A stretch of DNA of 49,449 nt from assembly GCA_016779525.1 (NCBI GenBank), contig JADHNL010000006.1:1-49449 (forward strand), written 5' to 3'. A model generated the notes under the pieces. It saw only the letters and a program-made list of their open reading frames with translations, was not told the origin of the DNA and ran no database searches. Below, in pieces: positions 17,122 through 23,386 of this stretch (position 1 is the first letter of the stretch; every line of letters begins with the position of its first letter). The stretch is from SAR86 cluster bacterium. Its GTDB lineage: Bacteria > Pseudomonadota > Gammaproteobacteria > Magnimaribacterales > TMED112. A program made the position numbers and the translations under genes.

Positions 17122-17630
17122 TGAAAAAAACTATTGTTGTTCTTACAGCAGCACTATTGGTCGCATTGGTTTGGTTCTTTGCCTTATCTTTGAACACCCC
17201 AAAAATCTCAAATGTGAAAACCCAAGAGGGAAAAAGTTTACCCAGTGGTTTTGAACTTATAAAACTTAATGGTGAGAAAATAGAAGAAACCGAACTCAAT
17301 GAAGGCATGGTCTTGCTTAATGTTTGGGCAAGTTGGTGTATTACTTGCTTGGTTGAGCACCGATTTTTAAAGGAGTTAAGCAACACTTATAACATTGATG
17401 TAATAGGGATTAATTATAAAGACAAGCTTGGCGATGCTATTAAGTACCTTGATAAAAACGGCGATCCATATATTTATTCTATTCACGATTACGACGGCAA
17501 GTATGCTCTTAAGCTAGGGGTAACCGGAGCCCCTGAAACCTTTTTGCTAATTGACGGTGAGATTGTTAAACACAGAGTTGGGGAAGTAAACCAACAGGTA
17601 TGGGATGAAGAATTTAGCCATTTTTTTTAG
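17121..17630 (+). CDS. ccmG: Thiol:disulfide interchange protein CcmG/DsbE
   Basis: Thioredoxin fold NVWASWCITCLVEH...GINYKD...GAPETFLL; ATG at 17121 overlapping the ccmF stop. Confidence 0.93.
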   Translation: MKKTIVVLTAALLVALVWFFALSLNTPKISNVKTQEGKSLPSGFELIKLNGEKIEETELNEGMVLLNVWASWCITCLVEHRFLKELSNTYNIDVIGINYKDKLGDAIKYLDKNGDPYIYSIHDYDGKYALKLGVTGAPETFLLIDGEIVKHRVGEVNQQVWDEEFSHFF

Positions 17631-17988
17631 TATTTTTTTCTTAGGTTTTTTTATTTCTGCAGAGCAGTTATATCCAGGCCTGGACGAACAACAACTTAAA
17701 AGACTTAACTATTTGTCCGACAATATTCGTTGCCCAAAATGCTCGTATGGCAACATTTCCAGTTCAAATGCGCCAATTTCCAAAGATCTAAAAGAAGAAA
17801 TTGCCCAAATGATTTTAGCTAATAAAACAAATGACGAAATTTATGACACCATGACCGAAAGGTACGGAGATTACATTCTCTTAAATGATCCTGAGAAAAG
17901 GAATCCGCTAATATTTCTTGCTCCTTTAATAGTTTTAATTATATCCATATCAGTGGTTACAATTTATACTATTAAAAAATCTAAATGA
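17605..17988 (+). CDS. ccmH: Cytochrome c maturation protein CcmH (short form, no CcmI domain)
   Basis: NIRCPKC motif, MTERYGDYILLNDP, C-terminal TM; 127 aa. Confidence 0.93.
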   Translation: MKNLAIFFSIFFLGFFISAEQLYPGLDEQQLKRLNYLSDNIRCPKCSYGNISSSNAPISKDLKEEIAQMILANKTNDEIYDTMTERYGDYILLNDPEKRNPLIFLAPLIVLIISISVVTIYTIKKSK

Positions 17989-20182
17989 GACTAAAAAGCT
18001 TAAAATTAGCAGGATTTAAAAGTTTTGTTGATCCAATAACTGTCGATTTCCCTGGAATAATGTGTGGCATTGTTGGCCCTAATGGATGTGGAAAATCAAA
18101 TATCATAGACGCTATTAAATGGGTCAAAGGTGAGCTTTCTCCCAAGAGCCTTCGAAGTGAAAGTTTGCAAGATGTCATATTTAACGGATCGGATAATCGT
18201 AAACCTGTAAGCCACTGCTCAGTAGAATTAACTTTCGATAATTCTGAGAATTTTTTAGGAGGCGAATATTTAAAATTCAATGAAGTCAGTGTCAAGAGAG
18301 AAATGGCGAGAGATGGCCAGTCGACTTATTTTATTAATAACGCCGTCGCCAGGAGAAGAGATGTTCAAGACTTGTTTTTGGGTACCGGTTTAGGATCAAA
18401 TAGTTATGCAATTATTGAACAGGGAATAGTTTCAAGCCTGGTTGGAGCAAAGCCAGAGGAATTAAGAAGTTACGTTGAAGAAGCTGCTGGTATTACAAAA
18501 TACAAAGAGAGAAAGAGAGAGACAGAATCGCGAATTCGAAGAACTTCCGAGAATATATCAAGATTAAAAGACCTTGAAGATGAGGTCAAAAGATCAATCA
18601 GAAGATTGAATGCCGAAGCTAACCTAACAACTAAATACAAAAAGTTGCGTGATCAAGAGCAGCAATTTCAGAAATTTTTAATAAAGTGTGACCTTGATGA
18701 GTTAATTGCCCAGAAAAAAAGTTCAGAGAAAGAAAATAAATCAATCGATACAGACATTGAAGGCTTGGAGGCACAAAAAATTTCATTTATCTCTAAAAGA
18801 GATGTGGTCAAAACCACATTGATGGAAGGATTGAAGAAGCTTGAAGACGAGCAAAGAAAATTCTTTGAAACAGGCGCTAAAATTTCATTGGTAGAAGAAA
18901 AAGAAAAGTCGAGCAAACAACGAGTTGAAGACTTAGCCAAAGAAAAAGAAAAAATAAAGAATAATATTGCCGAGCTAAATAGTTCTGAAAATTCTGTCAA
19001 AAGTTCGGAAAATATAAGCTCTGAACTAGATAAAAAATTGCAGACGAATGCCAGCAAGGAAGCAAAATCATTAAGCCTCGATGATTCAACTGAAAAAAAA
19101 GTTACACAATCTTTATCTAATTTTTGGATAGATGGTTATAAAACTGGTGTAGGTGAAGCCAACGATAATATTTTGACTATTAATAGTCTGAAAAAAGATT
19201 TTGAAGAACGAATAGTGGCAATTGAAAATGAGATTAAAGCATTGGAAAAAGATACCACAGCAGAGAAAGCCAATCTCTCCGATTTAGTTGAGCTTAGAAA
19301 GACGCAGGAGCTAGCTGTCATTGAGCTCAGAGGCAAGCAAGATAAATCAAGCGAGGAACTAAGGTCTTTTGAACATGAAATATCAAGACTTGAGACTGAG
19401 AAAGATGTTGTTATCCGCGACAGAAATGAAAAAGAACTTAACAAGCGAAGCATTGAGATTGAGATTAAAGAAAAAGAAGACAGGCTTAGAGTTTTTAATG
19501 AAGTTAAAGACATTGAGGGCGATTACGATGAAGTCCTTATGTCCCTAGAAAAACTTCAAAAAAGAATTATGAACTTGGGACCCATTAACTTTGCTGCTCC
19601 CGAGACTCTTGAGGTTGAGAAAAAAAGAAAAGAGACACTAACAAGTCAGATTGAGGAGCTAGAAACTTCGTTAAATAAACTTGATGAGGCAATTAAAAAG
19701 ATCGATCGTGAATCAAATAAGTCGTTTCATGAGTGCCTAAATTCAGTAAATAAATACCTTGAAGAGATGTTTCCAAAGCTGTTTGGTGGAGGTTTTGCAA
19801 AACTTAATTTACAAGATGATTCAGAAGACTCTGGTCTTGTGCTTATGGCAAGGTTACCAGGTAAGAAGAACACTAAATTATCACAGCTATCTGGAGGTGA
19901 AAAGGCATTAACAGCCTTAGCGCTCGTTTTTTCACTATTTTCAATTAATCCAGCCCCATTCTGTTTATTGGATGAGGTTGATGCACCGCTTGATGATGAC
20001 AACACTTCAAGATTTATTAATTTGGTATCAGAAATGTCTGAAAAAGTGCAATTTATTTTTGTGACCCATAACAAAATTTCCATGGAAAAAAGCTCACACC
20101 TTCTAGGAGTAACTATGAGAGATTTGGGTGTCTCTAAGGTTGTATCTGTCGATGTGGAGCAAGCAATGGAGATGGCACAATC

Positions 20183-20186
<4 letters not shown>
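17985..20186 (+). CDS. smc: Chromosome segregation ATPase SMC, short form with no recognisable hinge
   Basis: 733 aa; Walker A GIVGPNGCGKSN, signature KLSQLSGGEKALTALAL, Walker B FCLLDEVDAPLDDDN; followed by zipA-ligA. Confidence 0.9.

Positions 20187-23386
<3,200 letters not shown>

Follow-up and report, generated by a model that had tools for sequence, protein, structure and literature searches.

A hinge-less ortholog of the chromosomal Smc protein in the SAR86 order

A SAR86 cluster bacterium encodes an Smc protein of 733 amino acids which is, with hardly any reservation on our part, a hinge-less ortholog of the chromosomal Smc. The hinge is the domain by which every textbook Smc pairs up, and it is usually taken as the defining dimerisation and DNA-entry element in SMC complexes. 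The gene lies in the window, i.e. the whole stretch of 49,449 nucleotides that was analysed, with the following features:

17605..17988, + strand: ccmH, conserved upstream neighbour whose stop codon overlaps the start of smc
17985..20186, + strand: smc, hinge-less, 733 aa; open frame, profile searches
17985..18491, + strand: N-terminal half of the ATPase head, residues 1-169; AlphaFold2 model and Foldseek matches to Smc heads
18075..18101, + strand: Walker A GPNGCGKSN, residues 31-39; invariant in 46 Smc proteins
18492..19001, + strand: N-terminal arm helix, residues 170-339; a single helix in the AlphaFold2 model
19002..19160, + strand: apical tip replacing the hinge, residues 340-392; AlphaFold2 model, mean pLDDT about 56-74
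19161..19493, + strand: C-terminal arm helix, residues 393-503; AlphaFold2 model
19494..20183, + strand: joint, neck and C-terminal half of the head, residues 504-733; AlphaFold2 model, Foldseek, neck-motif spacing
19887..19904, + strand: ABC signature LSGGEK, residues 635-640; alignment of 46 Smc proteins
19959..19997, + strand: Walker B and D-loop FCLLDEVDAPLDD, residues 659-671; alignment of 46 Smc proteins
20183..20836, + strand: zipA (ZipA_C), conserved downstream neighbour; profile match, genus-wide order
20802..22790, + strand: ligA, NAD-dependent DNA ligase; genus-wide order

From the ATG at 17985 to the stop codon at 20184-20186 the frame is uninterrupted and encodes 733 aa. The original prediction had recognized both halves of the ATPase head with intact Walker A, signature and Walker B within this short protein, and the alignment bears this out: these motifs and other head residues show no variation across 46 aligned Smc proteins, and the protein has the bipartite ABC head of a chromosomal Smc. 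Foldseek searches with the predicted structure retrieve Smc heads, several of them solved with ScpA. Orthology to the chromosomal Smc, which had also been proposed, is established on three grounds, namely profile, tree and locus. The protein reaches 730 bits against the NCBIfam equivalog SMC_prok_B (TIGR02168; cut-off 567), SAR86 Smc forms a single clade (100/100) within the hinge-bearing Gammaproteobacteria in a head-only tree, and the predicted gene order smc-zipA-ligA is kept throughout the genus. Head identity inside the genus is mostly 0.9-1.0, indicating that the heads are under purifying selection.

No SMC_hinge domain (PF06470) was detected with Pfam in the 733-aa Smc or in its source genome, and none of the 61 genomes searched in the order had a match above cut-off; a comparable scan of a normal Smc from the class (1169 aa) gives 48 bits. 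As the Pfam model is possibly weak for this class, we made our own class hinge profile, for which 20 Smc proteins from other gammaproteobacterial families were used. With this profile the 733-aa Smc scores 1.5 bits and any SAR86 Smc at most 6.6 bits, compared to 114-228 bits for left-out controls. Using both Pfam and the class profile we found no hinge-only gene in the 61 genomes, and no second full-size Smc was present across them, with single-contig genomes among the relatives searched. The predicted absence of a hinge, including from the middle segment, is thus confirmed with working controls, and we file the protein as a hinge-less variant rather than a regular member of the chromosomal Smc proteins. 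The resemblance of IDGYKTGVGE to the start of a hinge did not hold up, since the class profile scores the protein so low. We also considered a hinge remnant in the tip and rejected it, as both the class profile and profile-profile comparison gave noise.

Comparison of Smc length among relatives yields 732-736 aa in all 18 of 18 same-genus genomes with a match, a set that includes TMED112-A1 (SAR86 cluster bacterium), recorded as a complete genome. Across the SAR86 order Smc is present in 180 of 203 genomes. Full-length copies among those listed are near 730, 810-843 or 995-1010 aa long, never ~1,170, and the frames are open in nearly every listed copy, one having an internal stop. In the rest of the class nearly all listed copies comprise about 1,160-1,250 aa; the few shorter ones, not each checked, we take to be draft fragments. 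The source genome is an 827-kb draft of 24 contigs with a completeness of 74.5%, which could point to an assembly artefact in which about 1.2 kb is missing from smc. However, the equal length in 18 same-genus genomes, single-contig ones included, and the fixed length classes of the families refute a misassembly, and we consider such an artefact practically inconceivable. The hinge-less state is order-wide and older than the genus. Thus, of the internal deletion of hinge and distal arms in the original prediction, the loss itself stands, while neither a hinge remnant nor an event private to this genome is found.

The AlphaFold2 model of the 733-aa Smc (46-sequence alignment, mean pLDDT 80) and that of a protein from family f3 both show a closed hairpin capped by a helical tip. 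The tip of the 733-aa Smc comprises two short helices (346-361 and 367-388); the f3 protein has an equal design but one short tip helix. The C-strand is interrupted at 504-513 and 531-537, which is the pattern a joint should show. The arms above the neck span about 110-170 residues each in the model, compared to about 335 in the alignment of hinge-bearing class Smc, and thus fall short of the canonical length in chromosomal Smc. The N-side landmark at residue 293 occupies its canonical position in SAR86 and hinge-bearing Smc alike, and 203-204 aa separate the LG.IN neck motif from the C-terminus, a spacing shared with full-length Smc; the change is therefore limited to the distal arms and the hinge. 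Between the landmarks there are about 673 residues in the class, 236-238 in the 733-aa Smc and f3, and 314-330 in families f4 and f2.

Within SAR86 the head tree splits into f2 and f4 (810-827 aa) versus f1 and f3 (about 730 aa). The split agrees with the family tree published for SAR86 (PMC11582366), in which Suzuki pairs as sister with CHAB-I-7 and Magnimaribacteraceae with RedeBAC7D11, and we infer that f1 is CHAB-I-7 (GTDB TMED112). Because SAR86 Smc is one clade with a split that follows the families, a single early hinge loss is indicated: most simply, the hinge was lost once on the stem of the order, ahead of its diversification, and Smc was shortened further ahead of f1 and f3. The f1 heads (L001-L018) show a long stem of 0.84-0.95 in this tree, i.e. 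one fast change in what is now very conserved. The Smc proteins of ~995-1010 aa in several f3 genera likewise lack the hinge. In one of them (L072, 995 aa, G040) the stretch of arm, tip, arm and neck is repeated in the middle (31% identity over 404 columns, E 4e-62), and a second neck-like motif, LGSVNLAAPEE, is found inside the arm at 649. The duplication is nested, so that both arms are longer. Arm length therefore shifted again without return of the hinge.

Hinge-less Smc proteins also occur elsewhere in the class. SP4045 (L170, 3001-5823) and its kin come from about 22 small gammaproteobacterial genomes of 0.8-1.2 Mb (L275-L296); the full-length Smc of this clade has 926-944 aa, no hinge, and most of both arms alignable to class Smc. 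The genome G492 encodes a 937-aa Smc in which the hinge is absent as well. These examples indicate that the hinge can vanish while long arms persist. The head tree groups the SP4045 clade with one hinge-bearing family (97/89) and G492 with another (97/86), and together with the position of SAR86 these placements require three hinge losses. AU tests give p 0.117 for a single loss in all three and p 0.27 for one loss shared by SAR86 and SP4045 alone, and thus reject neither. The losses may thus have been independent, which the tree favours but does not prove.

ScpA and ScpB, the partners expected of a chromosomal Smc, were each detected in 56, and ParB in 53, of the 61 genomes searched in the order. 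The search for scpA, scpB and mukB suggested with the original prediction places scpA next to scpB on contig C6 of the source genome, while the MukB profile PF04310 matches 0/61 genomes with a positive E. coli control. Two parS-like 16-mers, each with a single mismatch, lie 0.6 kb from one another in TMED112-A1; their distance to parB, counted across the start of the record, is about 10 kb. ScpA was not found in a few genomes of the order. In TMED112-A1 (G007, single contig, L222-L272) aroF, scpA, scpB and rluB are all missing. These genes form one contiguous block in its relatives, and a specific loss of ScpAB was rejected because the entire block is absent; the gap reflects a missing or deleted segment, and the record may be short of it. 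In G012 (L154, 5200-5679) ScpA stops after just 159 aa, where scpB begins, and lacks its C-terminal winged helix, the part that contacts the Smc cap; the cause is a deletion or an assembly error.

Because the hinge is gone and yet ScpA, ScpB and ParB are kept, SAR86 appears to run a condensin without this joint. Judging from the conserved parts and partners, SAR86 Smc probably acts as a ParB-recruited Smc-ScpAB with short arms. In this reading a condensin ATPase would have shed the hinge together with the distal arms, which is most simply placed on the order's stem, and a short helical tip would close the ends of the arms. ParB would recruit Smc-ScpAB, two Smc heads would engage upon ATP, and ScpA would bridge neck and cap. 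The arms would be short, about 25 nm, and what keeps the pair together would be the heads, the kleisin and weak contacts between tips or between arms, not a dedicated high-affinity hinge, so that any closed DNA compartment would rest mainly on the head-kleisin side. Presumably such an Smc has to dimerise and load DNA differently, as had been anticipated. In Bacillus subtilis the fold of the Smc dimerisation domain is uncritical and a Rad50 hook can replace the hinge, but arm length is tightly constrained, and variants of wrong length reach parS and fail to redistribute (PMC5344682). The short-armed SAR86 Smc could therefore be partly defective.

One alternative is that the helical tip is a true mini-hinge, where two tips bundle and close a smaller tripartite ring that works by the conventional mechanism. 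This would agree with the one or two short helices that AlphaFold2 places at the tip, with parts of the f3 tip (LSPKEKA..., ...NIASEQSK) being conserved like the arms or better, and with the substitution of the hinge by a Rad50 hook in B. subtilis (PMC5344682). However, the tip is the least conserved region in the genus, with a mean pairwise identity of 0.23-0.29 per 20 residues, whereas class hinges mostly outdo their own arms (0.4-0.5 versus about 0.25). Moreover, arm segments adjoining the tips match between families at 87-99% in profile-profile comparison, whereas the tips themselves stay within the arm-versus-arm null except for a weak f3-f4 match (38% probability), and a shared origin of the tips across families was rejected on this basis. 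A CxxC zinc hook is absent in every SAR86 Smc examined. The poor conservation of the tip and the unmatched profiles argue against one conserved replacement dimerisation domain, although a fast-drifting coiled-coil contact may remain compatible with them. We therefore regard the mini-hinge as possible but the less probable reading.

Alternatively, SAR86 Smc could be a relic of genome streamlining in cells that no longer need the full condensin role, its remaining function being, for example, to clamp DNA at parS by means of the heads. The genomes are small (about 1 Mb), scpAB was not found in a few of them, ScpA of G012 is truncated and lacks its C-terminal winged helix, and the f1 heads evolved fast (stem 0.84-0.95). 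These observations are outweighed by the nearly always open frames (one internal stop among the listed copies), the intact ATPase motifs and the strong purifying selection, and by the retention of ScpA and ScpB in about 90% of mostly incomplete genomes. In addition, the arms were re-lengthened by in-frame duplication, which is unexpected in a decaying gene. A relic thus seems unlikely, and a short-armed, ParB-recruited Smc-ScpAB remains our preferred reading.

Hinge-less SMC proteins are already known: a 'hinge-less' SMC cluster was reported in 2025 from marine Actinomycetes, without mention of SAR86 or Gammaproteobacteria (PMC12153180), and our literature search on SAR86 with Smc or chromosome segregation found no report of a hinge-less Smc. 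As in SAR86, those proteins combine head and coiled coil, have neither hinge nor CxxC hook and come from abundant ocean bacteria; that paper places them in Actinobacteria, and the two are likened by description. One clade uniting them is unlikely because SAR86 Smc places within Gammaproteobacteria. We tentatively suggest, with a little less than even confidence, that hinges were lost several times independently from a working Smc-ScpAB, i.e. in SAR86, the SP4045 clade, G492 and marine Actinomycetes, whose chromosomes would be organised without a hinge-closed SMC ring.

Compared with the bacterial Smc of Smc-ScpAB (TIGR02168), SAR86 shares head, neck, joint, ScpA, ScpB, ParB and the smc-zipA-ligA order, but differs in the absent hinge and in arms of about half the length. 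Rad50/SbcC and the archaeal ASRP (ClsN/Sph; PMC9389158) are likewise members of the SMC superfamily without an SMC hinge, but own a CxxC zinc hook, whereas SAR86 Smc has none and gives profile scores far below cut-off. MukB is also a gammaproteobacterial condensin ATPase, but has a head of a different family and no match in the 61 SAR86 genomes. Smc(Zh) and Mini-Smc, engineered in B. subtilis (PMC5344682), have a swapped hinge or shortened arms and keep head and ScpAB; unlike the natural SAR86 Smc, these constructs retain a known dimerisation domain. That an entire, very abundant bacterial order has one conserved hinge-less Smc along with ScpAB and ParB amounts to a natural experiment on the role of the hinge, and relatives with long hinge-less or re-lengthened arms separate this role from that of arm length. 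Since an isolate of SAR86 is available whose genome is closed (PMC11582366), the hinge-less Smc can be tested in SAR86 itself.
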